64,000 nt of DNA from positions 124,001 through 188,000 of the forward strand of contig CP069394.1 in the NCBI GenBank assembly GCA_016887485.1, read 5' to 3'. A program made the translations under genes and the position numbers. Below the pieces are notes generated by a model. That model searched no databases. It saw nothing but the letters and a program-made list of their open reading frames with translations, and had not been told where the DNA came from. The first letter of the stretch is position 1. Every line of letters starts with the position of its first letter. Below are positions 13,866 through 46,602 of the stretch, in pieces. The stretch is from Chloroflexota bacterium (GTDB lineage: Bacteria > Chloroflexota > Anaerolineae > Anaerolineales > Anaerolineaceae).

Positions 13866-15095
13866 TTAATTGGAATAACCTGGAGCATCATCCAAAAGGC
13901 GTTTCTCACCCTCCAGTGAGCGAATATGGGAGATTTCCTGCGAAACCTCGATGCAACCCCGATAGGCGCCACTCTCATCTCTTAGGGCAAAATAGCGGAT
14001 ATGGACAAAGGCTTCGCCAGCCTGGATCCAGAACTCAGCAACGTCCCGTTTGCCGGAACGGAAATCTTCCAGAATGATCTGCACCTTATGGACACTCTGT
14101 GGCGGGTGGCATTTGGTCACCGCCCGGCCGATGATCGCAGGGGAGCGATCAAAAATACGGTGCTTGCCCTGAGTGAAGTAGCGGACTTCGTCGTGCTCGT
14201 CAACAAAAGTGACATCTATGGGCAGGTTTGTGAGCATTAAATTGATTTGTTCCTGGCTCAAAAGGCCGGTATCAAGGTTTAGCAGGTTTTCCATATCTGT
14301 TCCTTTTAGTTGGGTAGTCAGAAGGGAGTCAGGGGATGGCTCAGGCTGCCAGCCGCTTTGCGGTTCGACATTGAAATAGCCGATCTGATCTTCCTGTGAG
14401 CGAATTTCTGACCATTCAGCATCGGTCAGACGGGTTATTGCCTCGGGAAAGAGAATTTTTTCTTCCTTGTATATCATTTCACGAATGGCATTGCCCAGGG
14501 GAACGAAGAGCCTGGCAACAGTTTCCTGGTCCGGCATATCCGCATTGAGAGCAGCCTGGAATTCCCGGAGCTGTTCTCTGATTTCATTATGGACGCCCCA
14601 CATCACCGTAGATGGGCCCTCAAAGCCCTTCTTTTCCAGATAAGGGAAGAGCAGGTTTTCTTTGCGGGAATAGTGCTTTTCGATATTCCGAAGGTCATCA
14701 GTTTCACGGCGAAGGGCATCCAGTGCCTCAGGTTGGTCTTCATCCCAGCGGTTGATGCTTTCGGCCATCACTTCCAACAGGCGGACGATGACTTCATTTT
14801 CCATTCGGAAGGTGAAGACGGGATGGCCGGGGAGCGATTCGGGGGTTGGTTCTTCATCGAGGGAATCTCGGAAGACGGCAACATGCAGGTCGCAGAGGCG
14901 TTGAATCTCACCAACAGGAACACCCTCGGAAATCATGGCACGTTCAGCATCTGCAATTTCAGAAGCCGATGCGCCGCGGATAGCCTCACCAAACTCTTCT
15001 TGAAGGTCTGCCACACTTTCGCCTTTGTGGAGACGTTTGATGACTTCCAACAGGGCTTGCTTACGTTTTGTTACATTATCAATATGCTCGCTCAT
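13866..15095 (-). CDS. DUF438 / hemerythrin / PAS protein
   Basis: 409 residues in three parts. DUF438 spans about 10-75 (RKQALLEVIKRLHKGESV). A hemerythrin HHE four-helix domain spans about 90-225, with likely diiron ligands in GHPVFTF, EKHYSRKENLLFP, WGVHNEIREQ and YKEEKILFP. A PAS-like domain spans about 280-395 and ends in VHIRYFALRDESGAYRG. Proteins of this build occur in anaerobes and are thought to sense or bind O2/NO-type species. ATG 15095 follows AGGAGAG. The next genes upstream are a ferredoxin and a Crp/Fnr regulator on the same strand. Confidence 0.9.
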   Translation of the reverse strand: MSEHIDNVTKRKQALLEVIKRLHKGESVADLQEEFGEAIRGASASEIADAERAMISEGVPVGEIQRLCDLHVAVFRDSLDEEPTPESLPGHPVFTFRMENEVIVRLLEVMAESINRWDEDQPEALDALRRETDDLRNIEKHYSRKENLLFPYLEKKGFEGPSTVMWGVHNEIREQLREFQAALNADMPDQETVARLFVPLGNAIREMIYKEEKILFPEAITRLTDAEWSEIRSQEDQIGYFNVEPQSGWQPEPSPDSLLTTQLKGTDMENLLNLDTGLLSQEQINLMLTNLPIDVTFVDEHDEVRYFTQGKHRIFDRSPAIIGRAVTKCHPPQSVHKVQIILEDFRSGKRDVAEFWIQAGEAFVHIRYFALRDESGAYRGCIEVSQEISHIRSLEGEKRLLDDAPGYSN

Positions 15096-15446: not shown

Positions 15447-16118
15447 CTAGGGCAGCGGAAGTTCAGCGATCTGATACAGCTTGGTTTTATCCAATAGGAG
15501 AATCTCGGAGTGGTCCTTTGTGATGAGATTCTCCTGTTCAAATTCTCGGAGTATACGCCCCACAATGTCCCGAGTGGTGCCGATTTCAGCAGCAATCTCA
15601 TCTTGGGTCCAGCCATTGGCATTGGGATGGAGACTATCAGCGAGTTGTAGGAGGAATCGCGCCAATCTTGTCCGCACGGGAAAAAGAGACAGGTTGGTGA
15701 TCTTATCTGTCAGATTTCCAATCCTACCGGCTAATTGCTTCAATAGTCGGGTCGAAAAATCAGGGTATTTCGTGATGAGATAATCAAAATCCGCTGCTGA
15801 GACGGCATAGAGGTCGACATCACTCAGGGCGTCGATAGTGGCTCGATTGTGTTGTGGGTTGGATAGCAAGGAGATGATATTTACAGGCTCGGGGCGGGAA
15901 AACCTGGCTAACACCTGAATGCGCCCCTCAGAATTCGTCCGGATAGTGCGCAAAATCCCCGAACGGATGAAGTAACCGTATTCCGCAGGCTCTTTTTCAA
16001 TCAACAGGATCTCTCCACAGGAGATGTGACGCGGAATCAGGCGTGCCTCAATCGCACGTTGGGTTTCCGGTGATAGCTGCCTAAAGAGTGGAAAATTGTC
16101 GAGATCAGGGTCATTCAT
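15447..16118 (-). CDS. Crp/Fnr family transcriptional regulator
   Basis: 223 residues. An N-terminal cyclic-nucleotide-type beta-barrel (about 10-120) is followed by a long helix and a winged helix-turn-helix (about 168-200: TQDEIAAEIGTTRDIVGRIL). The cysteine set for an FNR iron-sulfur cluster is absent (only one Cys, in RHISCGE), so it is not a classical O2-sensing FNR. It could use haem, a nucleotide or another ligand. It precedes the ferredoxin and hemerythrin genes by about 100 nt and may control them. Confidence 0.9.
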   Translation of the reverse strand: MNDPDLDNFPLFRQLSPETQRAIEARLIPRHISCGEILLIEKEPAEYGYFIRSGILRTIRTNSEGRIQVLARFSRPEPVNIISLLSNPQHNRATIDALSDVDLYAVSAADFDYLITKYPDFSTRLLKQLAGRIGNLTDKITNLSLFPVRTRLARFLLQLADSLHPNANGWTQDEIAAEIGTTRDIVGRILREFEQENLITKDHSEILLLDKTKLYQIAELPLP

Positions 16119-40388: not shown

Positions 40389-43300
40389 TCATTCTTTTTT
40401 GATCACGATCAGCGTCACATCGTCCAGGCGGGGTGTTGAGCCCGTGAATGCCTGAACGGATATCAGAAGGCTGTTGAGGAGTTCCTGGGCTGTGTCTGCT
40501 TTACAGGTGTAAAGCGTATCCTTCAACCGTTGAAGGCCATAGAATTTCCCTTCATGGTTCTGAGATTCCGTAATGCCGTCCGTATAGAAGATCAAATATT
40601 CCCCGGATTGAAGTGTGATCGTGTTCGTTTCCCAGGTATTGTCTTTAAAGATCCCAACCAAGGTGCCTGTTTTATCCAAAGTTATGCAGCTCTTGTCATT
40701 TCCTTCGCTTCGTAATACGCAGGGGGGATTATGTCCTGCGTTGACATAAGTGAAGGTGCCATTCTGGGGGTTGAGGATGCCATACACCACTGTTAGAAAA
40801 ATCCCATTTTGGGTATCGGTGAGGATGCGGCGGTTCACTTGGTGGATGACATCTTCCGGATCACGGGCTTCTTCACCGGCATAGGTGCGGATCAGTGTCC
40901 GGCTCATTGCCATATATAATGCAGCCCCAGCGCCCTTATCGCCAACGTCAGCGATGACCACGCCCAGCTTGCCACCTTCCAACTCAATGAAGTCATAAAA
41001 GTCCCCCGACGTCTCATGGGCGGGTAGCAGCACACCAGCCACTTGATAACCTGCTATGGTGGGGGAATGAGTCGGGATAAAAGTGTTTTGCACTCTTCCT
41101 GCTTCTGCAAGTTCCTGAGTGATCTTGCGATGGGCGATAGCCTGGGCTTTGGAGATGCACTTAAGCTGTCGTAGTTTCTCAATGATTACATCTTGATAGT
41201 AACTCACATCCATATCTTTGAATTCTGAGAGGACTTCCCGGAAGATGTTTTGTGCCTGGTCAATATCCTCTGGTTCATTGCGTTTCAGGAGGATAATGCC
41301 GATTTCCAGCATTACCCTTGCGTGCCACCAACGGCCTTCCATTTCTTCCAACCACTGCGCTGCAGCAGAAAGGTGTTCAAGCGCATGGTTCTCCTGACCA
41401 TGAGCTAATGCCAACCGAGCTTGGGCTAGGGTGATCCAAATTCTATCCTGTTTATTTGGATGGTTCTGATAGATGTTATCCGCTTTTGCCACTGCCGCTT
41501 CGGCCAGATCCAGGTTGCCCTTGAGCGTATAGATCACGCCAATCAGGCATTGGGTGGCAAGTTCTGATTGAGCATGAACTTTTTGGGGTGTTTTTATGAC
41601 GTCTGCGAGCATATCTAGGACAATGTCCAATTCTGAAGAATTGGTATTGTCAGATTCCAGAAGGTGGGATTCAAGGATGATCTCAGCCATGCAGTGATTG
41701 GCCAGAAGGTTTTGTTTGTAATCATGGGTTTGCCGGCTTCGTTCAATCAACTCAGTGAATGTATTGATCGCACTCCTGAAATCCCCTTTGTAGCGTTGTA
41801 AACACCCTTTCAGATAGAGATTATTGAGTGTAGTCTCGCCCAAATAAGATTCTGATTTCAGCAAATCTCTGTCAATAACTTCAAGGCGTTGTTCAACGTC
41901 TTTGAAATCTGCCAGCCAGAGTGAGGCATAGATAATTGATTGGTTTAAAGATAATTCATCTGATATGCCACCGGCTTTCACACCCAACTGGAGGACGCGC
42001 TTTCGGTAATCTCGGGCCAAACTAGTTTTGCCAAGGTCATCTACCACGAATGCAAGGTTGATATACGCTCTGGAGGCGGGGCCGAAAAGGTTATGCGCTT
42101 CACTGACTTTTACTGCCATTTCAAGAGATTCAATGGCTTGTTCAGGCTTGAGATTGGGGAGGACGCCTATGGTTGCGAGGGCTTCAGCTTGAACGTCATA
42201 GGCATTCAACCGTTTGGCCATTTCAAGCGCTTGCTCACAATACGTCTGGGCTTTCTCCGGTTGATCATTGAAGAAATAGGCCCGTCCGGTTTCGTGGATG
42301 AGGTAGGCGATATCGGCGCTTTCGGTTTTATCTCTGACAGCTTCAAGGCCTTCCAGGCATATCTCAAGTCCGTGCTTACGGTCATATCCCCACCAGGCGG
42401 ACCGGGCTGACCACGCATAGACCCTTGCCAGCTGGTCAAAGTCCTGAAATTCCTGATGAAAATCGATTGCCTTCCGCCAGGCCTGGACGGCCGGACGATG
42501 CCTGCCTTGTTGGGCAAGAGCCTCTCCCAAATCTGTATATAGATGGGCTAAAGTGGCATGATCTTTAGTGATCTGGATCGCTTGGCTGAAATAATATTCA
42601 GCTTCTGCATTAGCAAATGAGTCTCGTGAGACATGACCTGCTTTATCAAGATAGTGGATGGCCTTTTCAGTGTGCTTGCCTTTCGAGAAGTGGTAGGCGA
42701 GCTGCGATGCAAGCCGCTCGAGCTGATCAGGGTAGAGGTCTTCAAGAGCCGTACCTACGGCGAGATGAAGCTTATTGCGATCCTCCTCGATGATGGAATG
42801 ATAGGCTGCGTCATGGAGAAGGATATGTTGAAAAGTGTAAATCAGTTCAGGATGGACCTGGCTCACCTGGATCATCCCAATGGATTCCAAAACGTTGAGT
42901 TGTTCCATGAGGGCAATATTGGGAGACTGCGTCAGGAGGACTCGTTCAATCACCTTCTCCGGAAAAGTTCGCCCGATCACGCTGGCAACCCGCATTGTAT
43001 CTCTGGCTTCTGCAGGGAGGCGATCAATCCGGGCAGTTAGCAGACCTTGCAGGCTGTCCGGGATTCGTTCGGTATTAACTTCCGATGCGACCTGCCAATG
43101 ATCATTCTTCTGGACCAACATGCCTTCATTGGTCAGCATCCGCAGCAACTCTTCAATAAAAAATGGGTTGCCTTCAGATTTTTTCAGGATTAAATCTCGA
43201 ACTTCATCCGGGAGTTTTTGGAGGTCAATCAGTTCGTTGACCAGTTCCTCGCTCTCATTTTCATCAAGGTTTTGCAGTGTGATCTCGTTCAGCCTTGGGC

Positions 43301-44735
43301 CGATTTGTTCCCGAGCAGCATTGATCAGGGCCCAACCATCCGAATCCCGATAAAGACGGGTGACCAAGCAGATCAGGATGGGAGCTGTTGTGGTGATGGG
43401 CAAAAAGTCCATCAGGATCTCTATTGAAGATTTGTCAGCCCAATGGAGGTCCTCCAGAACGATCACAAGGGGTTGCTCCATAGCCAGGGCCTTAAAGAAT
43501 GATTGCAGGGCATTTAGATATTTTCCCTGCAATTCACTTGCTTTCAGTTGGTGGATATAGGTTTCTTTTTCTTCGGTCAACTGGACATCCAGAAGGTGGG
43601 CCAGATAGGTAATGATATTTTCGGGGTTTCCGCCCAACAAATTATTGGCTTTATTTGTAATTTTGGAGAGGATCTCTTCGGACGAATCTTCTCTGTCTAT
43701 CTCAAGAGCTGACCGCAGTAAGGACTTTAATAAGTGATAGGCCAGTTCTTTACCGAAGGACTGACCATGGGCTTCGATCCAGTGCAGCCTTGTGGGCTGG
43801 TGCAAGGTCCTTAACTGCTGTTTCCATTCCATTACTAAACGAGATTTTCCAATACCGGGATCTCCAAGGATCATACTCAGCCGCCCCAAACCAGCGAGAA
43901 CTGTTTCAGAAAGCTCAAGGAGGATCTCCAGTTCACTTTTACGGCCAATAAGCGGGGTGCTGCTGTTGATCGGGGTTCTCAAAAAGGATGCACCGGGTCG
44001 GTTGATCTGGTCAACTTGCCAAAGGTGATGCTCCTCATCAACTTTGGAGCAATAGGGATCAGATAATTCCGTGCATTGAACAAAGGGTTTGACGAACCGG
44101 AAGGTGTCTTCAAAGAGGATGATCGCATTGCTGGGAATCACCATCCGGGTGGCACGGTCCATACATTCGAGGGTTTCATTTACGGATTGGAAATCGAACC
44201 TTAGGTTGGATTTTAACTCGCCAATCAGAATTGGGCCGGTATTTAGGACAATGTGAAGATCAAAAGGGACGCCGAATTTCTCTTTGATGGTCTGGCTATA
44301 CTTTCCAATTTCCAAGAGGATTGTGCCTGCTGCGTGAATGGCCCGTTGAGGGTCGTCCTCATGGGTCACTGGTGCGCCAAAGAACGCCAGAACCGTGTTT
44401 TTCCATAGTTTTGCGATGGACCCTTCAAACTCAAAAACGATTCCAGCAATTCGGTCCAGAACGGCGTTCAATATTGAACTTTGGTCTTCTTCCGGAATTT
44501 TTTCTGAGAAGTCACCCGCATTTGCAATGGTCAGCATCATGGCTGTAACATTGCGCTGCTCCTTGGAAAGGTACGGCACAGAGCGGACCTTCTGGACGAA
44601 TCTTTTGGGTGCTGTGGCGGCGAGCCTGGAAAAATAAAGTTGTTCGAGAGTGGGGTTATTGGAAATGGGATAACCACAGAAACCACAAACCCGGGTTTTT
44701 GGATTGATTTCAGCCTGGCAGGAGGTGCAATTCAT
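40389..44735 (-). CDS. Pseudo-cyclase / ATPase / TPR / SpoIIE phosphatase fusion protein
   Basis: 1448 residues. Zinc ribbon (C3, C6, C17, C20); class III nucleotide-cyclase fold (about 60-245); AAA/STAND ATPase (about 265-620; Walker A GDPGIGKSR near 291, Walker B LVIVLEDLHWAD); TPR-like helical region (about 640-1190); SpoIIE PP2C phosphatase (about 1220-1445). The cyclase metal aspartates are lost: FADI is MLTI (LTIANAG) and GDAV is KNTV, so it should be inactive. The phosphatase acidic residues are kept (SGDFYD, IADVGDKG, YTDGITES, LDDVTL). Divergent from the CNB-PH gene. Confidence 0.9.
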   Translation of the reverse strand: MNCTSCQAEINPKTRVCGFCGYPISNNPTLEQLYFSRLAATAPKRFVQKVRSVPYLSKEQRNVTAMMLTIANAGDFSEKIPEEDQSSILNAVLDRIAGIVFEFEGSIAKLWKNTVLAFFGAPVTHEDDPQRAIHAAGTILLEIGKYSQTIKEKFGVPFDLHIVLNTGPILIGELKSNLRFDFQSVNETLECMDRATRMVIPSNAIILFEDTFRFVKPFVQCTELSDPYCSKVDEEHHLWQVDQINRPGASFLRTPINSSTPLIGRKSELEILLELSETVLAGLGRLSMILGDPGIGKSRLVMEWKQQLRTLHQPTRLHWIEAHGQSFGKELAYHLLKSLLRSALEIDREDSSEEILSKITNKANNLLGGNPENIITYLAHLLDVQLTEEKETYIHQLKASELQGKYLNALQSFFKALAMEQPLVIVLEDLHWADKSSIEILMDFLPITTTAPILICLVTRLYRDSDGWALINAAREQIGPRLNEITLQNLDENESEELVNELIDLQKLPDEVRDLILKKSEGNPFFIEELLRMLTNEGMLVQKNDHWQVASEVNTERIPDSLQGLLTARIDRLPAEARDTMRVASVIGRTFPEKVIERVLLTQSPNIALMEQLNVLESIGMIQVSQVHPELIYTFQHILLHDAAYHSIIEEDRNKLHLAVGTALEDLYPDQLERLASQLAYHFSKGKHTEKAIHYLDKAGHVSRDSFANAEAEYYFSQAIQITKDHATLAHLYTDLGEALAQQGRHRPAVQAWRKAIDFHQEFQDFDQLARVYAWSARSAWWGYDRKHGLEICLEGLEAVRDKTESADIAYLIHETGRAYFFNDQPEKAQTYCEQALEMAKRLNAYDVQAEALATIGVLPNLKPEQAIESLEMAVKVSEAHNLFGPASRAYINLAFVVDDLGKTSLARDYRKRVLQLGVKAGGISDELSLNQSIIYASLWLADFKDVEQRLEVIDRDLLKSESYLGETTLNNLYLKGCLQRYKGDFRSAINTFTELIERSRQTHDYKQNLLANHCMAEIILESHLLESDNTNSSELDIVLDMLADVIKTPQKVHAQSELATQCLIGVIYTLKGNLDLAEAAVAKADNIYQNHPNKQDRIWITLAQARLALAHGQENHALEHLSAAAQWLEEMEGRWWHARVMLEIGIILLKRNEPEDIDQAQNIFREVLSEFKDMDVSYYQDVIIEKLRQLKCISKAQAIAHRKITQELAEAGRVQNTFIPTHSPTIAGYQVAGVLLPAHETSGDFYDFIELEGGKLGVVIADVGDKGAGAALYMAMSRTLIRTYAGEEARDPEDVIHQVNRRILTDTQNGIFLTVVYGILNPQNGTFTYVNAGHNPPCVLRSEGNDKSCITLDKTGTLVGIFKDNTWETNTITLQSGEYLIFYTDGITESQNHEGKFYGLQRLKDTLYTCKADTAQELLNSLLISVQAFTGSTPRLDDVTLIVIKKE

Positions 44736-44854
44736 TGATAGTGACCCTTATGCTTCCTAATACGACCATTTGTGTCATATTCATTTGATTATATCATTAT
44801 TGCTATTCAACAATCAATACAATCAGTCAGGGTTTATTGTTTTGATTTCAAACG

Positions 44855-44883
44855 TTGGATTAACCCATAATTTGTTTTATACT
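44855..44883 (+). promoter_or_regulatory. Promoter of the CNB-PH gene (leaderless)
   Basis: TTGGAT (44855-44860), 17-nt spacer, TATACT (44878-44883), then six bases and ATG 44890. Transcription should start at the ATG itself. Confidence 0.75.
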
Positions 44884-44889
44884 AAAGTC

Positions 44890-46602
44890 ATGCGAGTTGA
44901 ACAATCTGAACGCATCGAAATTCTCAAACAGTCTTCCTTGTTTGGCTATTTGACCCCCGGAGAACTTAATCGACTGGCGGGTTTGTTCAAGTCGTCAACT
45001 TGCGCTGAAGGGGAGCCAATATTCGAAGAAGGTGAACCCTCGGAGACGATTTTTTTCGTCTTCGAAGGGGAAGTGGACCTGACGGCAATTCATAAACGGG
45101 AAGAAAGGGTGTTCACTTCCCTTCGCCGGGGGGATTATTTTGGTGAGGAATCGCTTTTTGAGGATGACCCACGCTATTACACGGCTATTGCTGCAACCGA
45201 TGTGGTTCTGTTGACATTGGATGTGGATAGTTACCTTTATATTTACCCCGATCTACCGGATATTGAAGAGCGGCTTGAGATAGCCGTGGACAGCCGAAAA
45301 CTGGCGTCGCGGATGCCATTCCCCTGGTTGGGGAAAGACGAGTATCCTCTGGTTGTTGCCCGGCGGCACCCAGCCGTTCTCTGGGCCAAAGAGGTCACAT
45401 CCATTGTCGTTGGCCTGGTCGCCATCGTGGCGGGATTTTTTACATCAGCGCTTTGGCTGCCGGACAGACCCTATGGCTGGCTGATGATGGGTTTGGGTGG
45501 GGGCATTGCCTTGATTTGGTCCATCTGGACTTATTTTGACTGGCGAAATGATTTCTTCCTGCTGACGAATAAGCGGGTGGTTTGGGTTGAAAAGGTGGCC
45601 CTGATTTATGACAGTCGAAAGGAAGCGCCCCTGCGGACGATCATGTCTATTGGTGAGTCGCGGACACGGCTGGGAAGTATTTTCGGGTTCTCGGATGTGG
45701 TTGTGACGACCTATGTTGGCACGATCCGACTGCACGATCTGGCCCGTGCCAAGCTGATCTCCAGCTTGATTGAGATTTATTGGCACCACGCGGATGATTT
45801 CAACCGGCGTGAAGAGGCTGACCTGATGGACTTGAAGCTCCGGCAGAAACTGGACGATCTGGCCTATCCAGATGACCTGACCCGGCCGGCGGTGACGCAA
45901 AGGGTTGAGCCTGAACCTGAGGAGCAGATCAAGGAAACTGGTTTCCTCGCCTGGCTGTTCTCAGATTTCATTCGGCTGCGCTATGAGGCGAACGGCGCAA
46001 TTACCTATCGCAAACATTGGTTTGTGCTTGTCAGGGCGGCGTGGCTGCCGGTTTTGTTGATGTTTGGGATGCTTGCGGTGGTGATCGTCCGGGTGACAGG
46101 CGGCCTAGCTTTCATACCGATGAATTCAGCGTTATTTGGTTTGATTGCCCTGATGTTTGTTGATTTCCTCTGGATCCTCTATCAATATGCGGACTGGCGG
46201 AATGACATCTTCCAGGTAACCCTGGATCAGATCATTGACTTTGATCGGAAGCCTTTGGGGAAGATGCGAAAGCGGTCCGCTCCTTTGGAAAATGTACTGA
46301 GCATTGAATATGATCGCCGTGGCTTTTGGGGTTTTGTTTTCAATTTTGGTACGGTTTATATCACGGTGGGTAATACCCGCCTGACCTTTGATTTCGTGTA
46401 TAATCCATCCGCTGTCCAACAGGATATCTTTTACCGGATGGGAGAGCGGCTGGAAAAATTACGGCAATATGAAATTGATTCGGAGCGTGAGCGAATTTCC
46501 GAATGGATAGCCAGCTATCACCGTCGGATGGTGAAGAACCAGGATGGGGATGGCGGGAGTGAGAATCCGATGAAATCAACGGAACCATATGACGGACGTT
46601 GA
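44890..46602 (+). CDS. Cyclic-nucleotide-binding-like / bacterial PH domain membrane protein
   Basis: 570 residues from ATG 44890; a longer frame from 44770 would place the promoter inside the gene. A CNB fold (about 1-125) is followed by two membrane helices and a bacterial PH (bPH2) domain (about 215-310), then a second helix pair (about 380-430) and a second bPH domain (about 445-520). In the CNB phosphate cassette FGEESLFEDDP is kept, but the phosphate-binding Arg is replaced (RYYTAIA), so cyclic nucleotide binding is doubtful. Divergent to the pseudo-cyclase protein. Confidence 0.85.
   Translation: MRVEQSERIEILKQSSLFGYLTPGELNRLAGLFKSSTCAEGEPIFEEGEPSETIFFVFEGEVDLTAIHKREERVFTSLRRGDYFGEESLFEDDPRYYTAIAATDVVLLTLDVDSYLYIYPDLPDIEERLEIAVDSRKLASRMPFPWLGKDEYPLVVARRHPAVLWAKEVTSIVVGLVAIVAGFFTSALWLPDRPYGWLMMGLGGGIALIWSIWTYFDWRNDFFLLTNKRVVWVEKVALIYDSRKEAPLRTIMSIGESRTRLGSIFGFSDVVVTTYVGTIRLHDLARAKLISSLIEIYWHHADDFNRREEADLMDLKLRQKLDDLAYPDDLTRPAVTQRVEPEPEEQIKETGFLAWLFSDFIRLRYEANGAITYRKHWFVLVRAAWLPVLLMFGMLAVVIVRVTGGLAFIPMNSALFGLIALMFVDFLWILYQYADWRNDIFQVTLDQIIDFDRKPLGKMRKRSAPLENVLSIEYDRRGFWGFVFNFGTVYITVGNTRLTFDFVYNPSAVQQDIFYRMGERLEKLRQYEIDSERERISEWIASYHRRMVKNQDGDGGSENPMKSTEPYDGR

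Follow-up and report, generated by a model that had tools for sequence, protein, structure and literature searches.

Within a window of 64,000 nucleotides from a Chloroflexota bacterium of an Anaerolineaceae genus (GenBank assembly GCA_016887485.1, contig CP069394.1, positions 124,001 to 188,000, the whole stretch of DNA that was analysed), a single gene on the reverse strand encodes a protein of 1448 amino acids (aa) in which a class III cyclase fold that has lost both metal aspartates and the transition-state asparagine is joined, by way of a STAND ATPase and a TPR arm, to a SpoIIE-type phosphatase. Judged from its residues the cyclase is dead, purifying selection acts on the dead domain in those close pairs that were tested, and the chain as a whole looks like a secondary fusion of two adjacent genes. 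The reading favoured here is that of a STAND-type sensor phosphatase, made by joining a cyclase-ATPase core to a SpoIIE-bearing winged-helix/TPR arm, in which the ancestral cyclase output has been lost, the fold has been kept as a structural domain and a STAS protein is dephosphorylated; taken as a whole it is given even weight for and against. What the sequences suggest that is new is the history of the fusion and the existence of split arrays of cores and arms, and in the titles and abstract openings among the literature matches listed no published description of the five-part build or of the split arrays was found.

The gene and its pseudo-cyclase domain

The open reading frame (ORF) is uninterrupted over 1448 codons, and the order of the encoded parts is zinc ribbon, class III cyclase fold, STAND ATPase, winged helix and TPR, linker helix and SpoIIE phosphatase. 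The parts and the altered sites are as follows, where pLDDT is the predicted local distance difference test score and dN/dS the ratio of nonsynonymous to synonymous substitution rates.

40389..44735, minus strand: whole gene, 1448 aa (ORF and translation; Pfam; full-length match in 11/16 genus genomes, source genome included)
44676..44729, minus strand: zinc ribbon, residues 3-20, with C3, C6, C17 and C20 (Pfam Zn_Ribbon_1 at E 0.0084, below cut-off)
43998..44564, minus strand: pseudo-cyclase domain, residues 58-246, class III cyclase fold (model pLDDT 89.7, Foldseek and VIA-align to class III cyclases, dN/dS)
44529..44531, minus strand: T69, replacing the first metal aspartate (alignments)
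44397..44399, minus strand: N113, replacing the second metal aspartate (alignments)
44166..44168, minus strand: E190, replacing the transition-state asparagine (alignment)
42936..43955, minus strand: STAND nucleotide-binding domain, residues 261-600, Walker A GDPGIGKS and Walker B IVLEDLHWAD (Pfam AAA_16; aligned motifs)
42918..42935, minus strand: inferred fusion joint, at about residues 601-606 (stop and new start in relatives L009/L153, L035 and L037)
41205..42935, minus strand: winged helix and TPR solenoid, residues 601-1177 (Pfam TPR families; helical repeats in the model of residues 560-1448)
41079..41204, minus strand: long helix from the last repeats to the phosphatase, residues 1178-1219 (helix 619-660 of the model)
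40392..41060, minus strand: SpoIIE (PPM) phosphatase, residues 1226-1448 (Pfam SpoIIE over 1254-1446; metal aspartates invariant in 17/17)

SpoIIE (169.1 bits, cut-off 25), AAA_16 (72 bits, cut-off 32.6) and several TPR families exceed their Pfam cut-offs on the protein, and all four cysteines of the zinc ribbon are invariant in the 5/5 full-length proteins aligned. The same Pfam scan returned no cyclase family (PF00211) up to an E-value of 1, and one genus ortholog reaches 17.3 bits to PF00211, for which the cut-off is 21.9. A phmmer search finds CyaB at 2e-8 and 2w01 (Cya2) at 3.5e-8, and the alignment to NCBIfam TIGR03903 spans residues 58-715 at 229 bits, far under its cut-off of 705.75. 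The AlphaFold model of residues 1-262 (mean pLDDT 89.7) is matched to class III cyclases by Foldseek at E-values of 1e-13 to 1e-12, and VIA-align of the predicted model to 2w01_D gives Z 21.9 (197 residues, 2.5 A). Going by the model, this is a genuine class III cyclase fold and an intact one.

An earlier reading of the same DNA, made from sequence only, had held that both metal aspartates were lost from this domain, and alignment bears this out, with MLTI (67-70) standing at the site of, for example, FADV in relatives and KNTV (112-115) at the site of GDAI, so that T69 and N113 occupy the two positions. We take residues 109, 183, 190 and 194 to be at the positions of the base-recognising lysine, the base-specifying threonine, the transition-state asparagine and the arginine respectively; the threonine has become Q183 and the asparagine E190, two losses that the earlier reading did not mention, and K109 and R194 are kept, the latter varying in congeners. 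Both metal aspartates are missing from 11/11 genus orthologs, therefore the loss is no chance event, and the cyclase of the 1448-aa protein and of its orthologs in the genus is, judged by these residues, predicted to be catalytically dead. A substitute acidic residue near the lost aspartates was looked for by eye, and none is constant across the 11 orthologs. Among split or SpoIIE-linked relatives outside the genus both aspartates and the asparagine are retained in 25/25 and the arginine in 24/25, these relatives being 20 short cores and five SpoIIE-linked forms (two of them single-chain).

A few distant homologs, read by eye, are also short of metal aspartates, and in two of them (L081:3191-7819 and L095:3-3380) both are seemingly gone. 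Dead cyclases, as far as the aligned residues tell, recur in the wider family, and loss of the metal aspartates is not in itself unique.

The earlier reading also had the ATPase and phosphatase motifs whole, and here too it was right. Walker A (291-298) and Walker B (425-434) are both intact and lie in an AAA_16-type domain that is followed by a winged helix and repeats, as in a STAND ATPase. In the phosphatase D1245, D1263, D1386, D1438 and D1439 are present and invariant in 17/17 aligned sequences; we presume these aspartates (D1245, D1263, D1386 and D1438/1439) to be the metal-binding motifs, and the SpoIIE domain is apparently a whole phosphatase, with activity predicted from its motifs. 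The model of residues 560-1448 (pLDDT 87.8, predicted template-modelling score (pTM) 0.63) has a small domain at the place expected for the winged helix, a long solenoid of helical repeats and a helix of 42 residues (1178-1219) that leads into the phosphatase and is of low confidence over its second half (pLDDT 53-58). An anti-phage STAND system was also considered for this protein and set aside, as PADLOC yields weak Pycsar cyclase matches alone (E 0.0017 and 0.0024), which reflect the shared cyclase fold.

Two-gene relatives and the order of events

A search for the same five-part build elsewhere, which the earlier reading had proposed as a check, found it in the genus, as a single chain in genomes G020 and G164, and as two genes in G114, G210 and CP070785. 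Within the genus a full-length match is present in 11/16 genomes, counting the source genome. Among 151 genomes of the order at least 6 have SpoIIE-linked builds of both halves, four of them in the genus, with G020 (single chain, L152) and G114 (two genes, L153) making up the remainder, and 298 genomes of the class add G164 (single chain, L182) and G210 (two genes, L037/L183). The order and class sets overlap and at most three candidates were scored per genome at strict E-values, making these counts lower bounds. A scan of contigs (best 80 loci) adds CP070785 (two genes, L035) as well as copies of G053 and G210.

It is apparent from the two-gene forms where the halves meet. The first gene stops where the nucleotide-binding domain finishes, at profile position 341, and the second has a start codon of its own and opens with the winged helix; stop and start overlap or are close in L009/L153, L035 and L037, and a purine-rich stretch lies ahead of the second start in L009/L153 and L035. 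A programmed frameshift at the split point was judged unlikely, given that the downstream ORFs have their own starts and differ in their overlap or spacing after the stop. An artefact of contig ends was also judged unlikely, the break being at the same profile position (331-341) in 8/120 ORFs, mostly inside long contigs; L012 ends at a contig end. The 1448-aa protein looks like a secondary fusion of two adjacent genes, with its joint at the boundary of ATPase and winged helix. In L037 (6063-13125) there is a single core gene with two tandem SpoIIE-bearing second (arm) genes, the stops and starts of which overlap.

In a tree built from 121 cyclase-ATPase halves, all 16 rows linked to SpoIIE form one clade (Shimodaira-Hasegawa-like approximate likelihood ratio test (SH-aLRT) 97), with the genus (SH-aLRT 100) on a long branch beside G020 (96). 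A 66-row tree that includes array cores, described below, again has the SpoIIE clade (SH-aLRT 98), which falls within the split forms when the tree is rooted among single-chain homologs, and in this tree the split or single state requires five changes. The trees are quick ones, drawn at the midpoint with an assumed root. Five SpoIIE-linked rows outside the genus (L152, L182, L153, L035 and L037) keep the cyclase metal residues beside SpoIIE, and because these relatives retain them, cyclase catalysis was probably lost only once the phosphatase was in place. The likely order, as the trees and motifs suggest, would be a single chain that was split, gained a phosphatase on its arm and was rejoined (in G020 and the genus; in G164 separately or earlier), with cyclase activity then lost in the genus. 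Two points count against this history. The sequence of splitting and then joining depends on the root being placed among single-chain homologs, and the five SpoIIE-linked relatives carry T, A, N, R or S at the base-specifying site, with L182 also being without the arginine, which leaves their own cyclase activity uncertain.

If this order is correct, the family shows, with possible intermediates still alive, how the output of a multidomain sensor may be changed: a second enzyme is joined at the other end, the two coexist, the old enzyme dies and its fold is kept. The metal-keeping SpoIIE-linked relatives (L152, L182, L153, L035 and L037) can be set against the dead members of the genus, making the role of a dead cyclase testable between relatives.

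The phosphatase substrate and the role of the dead domain

It is possible to propose how such a protein might work. A signal would bind the TPR arm, and the bound arm would switch the STAND ATPase, the activity of which is predicted from the motifs present; this switch would alter the packing of the pseudo-cyclase/ATPase core, and the predicted long helix ahead of the phosphatase may relay the change, bringing two SpoIIE domains into an active dimer as is supposed by analogy with RsbU. Dimerising helical linkers are described as switching RsbU and, by prediction, other SpoIIE-type phosphatases (PMC12143880). The phosphatase would then dephosphorylate a STAS anti-sigma antagonist, for which the best candidate is a lone STAS protein termed STAS2 here. 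The cyclase would have been the ancestral output of the module, the phosphatase being joined to the same chain as a second output, after which the cyclase may have lost catalysis and stayed on in a structural role, probably that of a dimerising domain.

Three STAS and eight HATPase_c_2 matches were found in the genome. STAS1, an RsbW-like kinase and a 1292-aa SpoIIE protein stand in a row at C1:482500-491500, STAS2 lies by itself at C1:2704911-2705246 (G000), and both STAS proteins pass TIGR00377. Partner-switch genes are thus in the genome but not beside the gene of the 1448-aa protein, hence the substrate is one we infer. Further afield, STAS and/or RsbW genes adjoin similar SpoIIE genes in 11/20 loci fetched out of 26 listed SpoIIE-only matches (44-47% identity), one of the 11 (L163) having RsbW alone, at a contig edge. 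The STAS proteins of these SpoIIE loci score higher with STAS2 than with STAS1 in 10/10 cases, and in a STAS tree of 29 rows, which leaves out fragments, duplicates and one STAS-kinase fusion, the ten fall together with STAS2 and the eight orthologs of STAS2 in the genus, apart from the operon STAS (100/100). Substrate docking is described as determining which STAS protein SpoIIE-type phosphatases act on (PMC11418112).

A number of results speak against this pairing. No STAS or HATPase_c_2 match was found in the 64-kb window, nor any STAS or kinase gene beside L034, L035, L037, L152, L153 and L182, within flanks of 0.6 to 8 kb. The SpoIIE tree puts the genus outside the STAS-adjacent subclade, and the 40-row SpoIIE group that holds them both has 84/95 support. 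STAS2 is also present in G154 (79% complete), where the gene has no match, and the search for STAS in G157 (81% complete), a genome with the gene, found none. The pairing of the phosphatase with STAS2 is a lead from sequence and not a result. The phosphatase might instead act on something other than a STAS protein, outside partner switching altogether, as the lack of a partner-switch gene beside the five-part loci examined would lead one to expect; given that the genome encodes an RsbW-like kinase and STAS proteins, and that 11/20 of the similar SpoIIE loci fetched adjoin such genes, this is rather unlikely. The interpretation in the sequence-only reading, that the cyclase fold became a sensor or dimer module which, through the STAND ATPase and TPR, steers a phosphatase acting on a partner-switch system, is supported in part. 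The cyclase appears dead by sequence and is kept as a fold, the phosphatase motifs are whole, and the genome has partner-switch genes, to which similar SpoIIE loci are linked, though the five-part loci examined are not; a sensor or dimer role of the dead domain, its steering of the phosphatase and the identity of the substrate stand as proposals.

As for the dead domain, it could serve as a nucleotide sensor, binding ATP, GTP or a cyclic nucleotide without metal catalysis and so gating the ATPase or phosphatase. K109, at the base-recognising position, and W111 are invariant in 11/11 orthologs, and a gene for a cyclic nucleotide (cNMP)-binding protein is divergent from this one in 9/9 testable genus loci. 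However, the position of K109 is Arg in 15, Gln in 7, Lys in 2 and His in 1 of the 25 relatives, the metal ligands, the asparagine and the base-specifying threonine are all gone, and R194 is variable among congeners, making such a sensor unlikely.

The domain might also be a decaying remnant with no role, retained since the chain cannot easily shed it. It is the least conserved of the large domains in the 11 orthologs, with 43/189 invariant positions against 104/340 in the ATPase and 90/223 in the phosphatase. Yet in the three closest ortholog pairs, all drawn from one trio of close species, dN/dS of the dead cyclase is 0.066-0.091, which resembles the ATPase (0.061-0.069), that of the phosphatase being 0.097-0.121. 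Residues 58-199 are free of gaps in 11/11 orthologs, the model is of high confidence, and the orthologs share a constant stretch, EG.IAK.W....L.FFGAP..HE.DP.RA. Of the more distant pairs, L119/L120, near saturation, gives 0.081 for the dead domain, and L116/L117, near saturation also, could not be computed; P0001/L005, where P0001 is the 1448-aa protein, gives 0.18 with dS near-saturated, which is a point against a maintained domain. In the close pairs tested the dead domain is under purifying selection, and decay without a role is considered quite improbable.

Mammalian adenylyl cyclases are heterodimeric in their catalytic part, with a C2 half that binds no metal. That the pseudo-cyclase is such a half, partnering another class III domain, is very improbable. 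In its favour, it keeps K109 and R194, residues expected from a C2-like half, and a Pfam cyclase family exceeds its cut-off in 3/16 genus genomes. Against it, the asparagine that this half must supply is E190, 13/16 genus genomes have no such match over the cut-off, and in its own genome no second class III domain was found by Pfam or by a 50-row cyclase profile, which recovers this domain alone with the next match at E 0.06 (the search did not take in class I, II, IV or other cyclases). A structural domain kept for its fold is the role that we prefer for the pseudo-cyclase.

Arrays, neighbouring genes and known systems

The split forms are not limited to those with a phosphatase. L036 (7878-16630) has a cyclase-ATPase gene and then four winged-helix/TPR genes without phosphatase. 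With the L036 core as query, 396 genomes of the class gave a match at E 1e-135 in 39 genomes, and 17 of the matches listed have open frames of 599-690 aa. Sixteen stretches were fetched, 15 picked for a short core gene and one a single-chain homolog; in the 15 (within L219-L233) the core is accompanied by between one and eight arm genes of its own strand, a single-chain homolog precedes the core in 7/15, and two array cores have one in-frame stop each. A winged-helix/TPR-only gene on the same strand is found next door to 16/16 short cores as against 6/68 single-chain homologs, and every locus of those 6 also contains a short core. This count covers those of loci L035-L113 and L219-L234 in which 1500 bases or more were available, with the arm at most 2500 bases away; L222 and L230 were dropped for too little room. 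Arms from L036, L035, L153 and the 1448-aa protein served as seeds for the arm profile, so L036 and L035 match by construction. On the other side, three short cores in short loci outside the count (L011, L013 and L016) are without an arm gene directly after them.

It may be that the Anaerolineae STAND machine is split and combinatorial, with one cyclase-ATPase core serving exchangeable winged-helix/TPR sensor arms, and that one arm lineage gained a phosphatase and was welded to the core, after which the cyclase output was turned off, so changing from a second messenger to protein dephosphorylation; this wider view is tentative and leans towards doubt. The arrays suggest a STAND protein made as separate, mixable polypeptides and, if so, a new way of wiring many signals into one ATPase.

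The gene has constant neighbours in the genus. In 10/10 genus loci checked clpC ends toward it, and the nine loci with enough flank (L117 has none) all have the cNMP-binding gene in divergent orientation:

44770..46602, plus strand: divergent neighbour with a cNMP-binding domain, start codon uncertain (Pfam cNMP_binding 65 bits; divergent in 9/9 genus loci with enough flank)

Neither clpC nor the cNMP-binding gene was found beside L035, L037, L152, L153 and L182, so the neighbourhood reflects shared descent within the genus, and as regards the cNMP-binding neighbour being part of the same system, its constant position is shared descent and no proof of function. The Pfam scan covered 20 other ORFs of the window. 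The genome has three cNMP-binding proteins and no detectable class III cyclase, and two of the window's genes are of note in this respect: the neighbour at 44770-46602, with its cNMP-binding domain at the N-terminus, and a CRP-type regulator at 15447-16118 (cNMP-binding and HTH_Crp_2). A DUF438-hemerythrin-PAS protein is encoded at 13866-15095, which is maybe a sensor of oxygen or NO.

Proteins with a class III cyclase, a STAND ATPase and TPR include the mammalian soluble adenylyl cyclase and the mycobacterial cyclase-ATPase regulators. In the 1448-aa protein the cyclase fold, the STAND ATPase and the helical repeats follow one another as they do there, and its zinc ribbon is common to many Chloroflexota members of this group, from which it differs in its dead cyclase, its C-terminal SpoIIE domain and its score against TIGR03903 (229 against a cut-off of 705.75 bits). 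The operon SpoIIE protein of its own genome (L149) has a SpoIIE domain 37% identical to that of the 1448-aa protein and lies outside the 40-row SpoIIE group; unlike the 1448-aa protein, its input matches NifA-type sensor regions, which we take to be GAF-like, and unlike the 1448-aa gene, it sits in a row with STAS and kinase genes. Sensor phosphatases of the SpoIIE, RsbU and RsbP type likewise have a PPM phosphatase with whole metal sites and a long helical linker. Where their input is by PAS, GAF, HAMP, response-receiver or RsbU N-terminal domains, as set out in PMC12143880, that of the 1448-aa protein would be a pseudo-cyclase with STAND and TPR.

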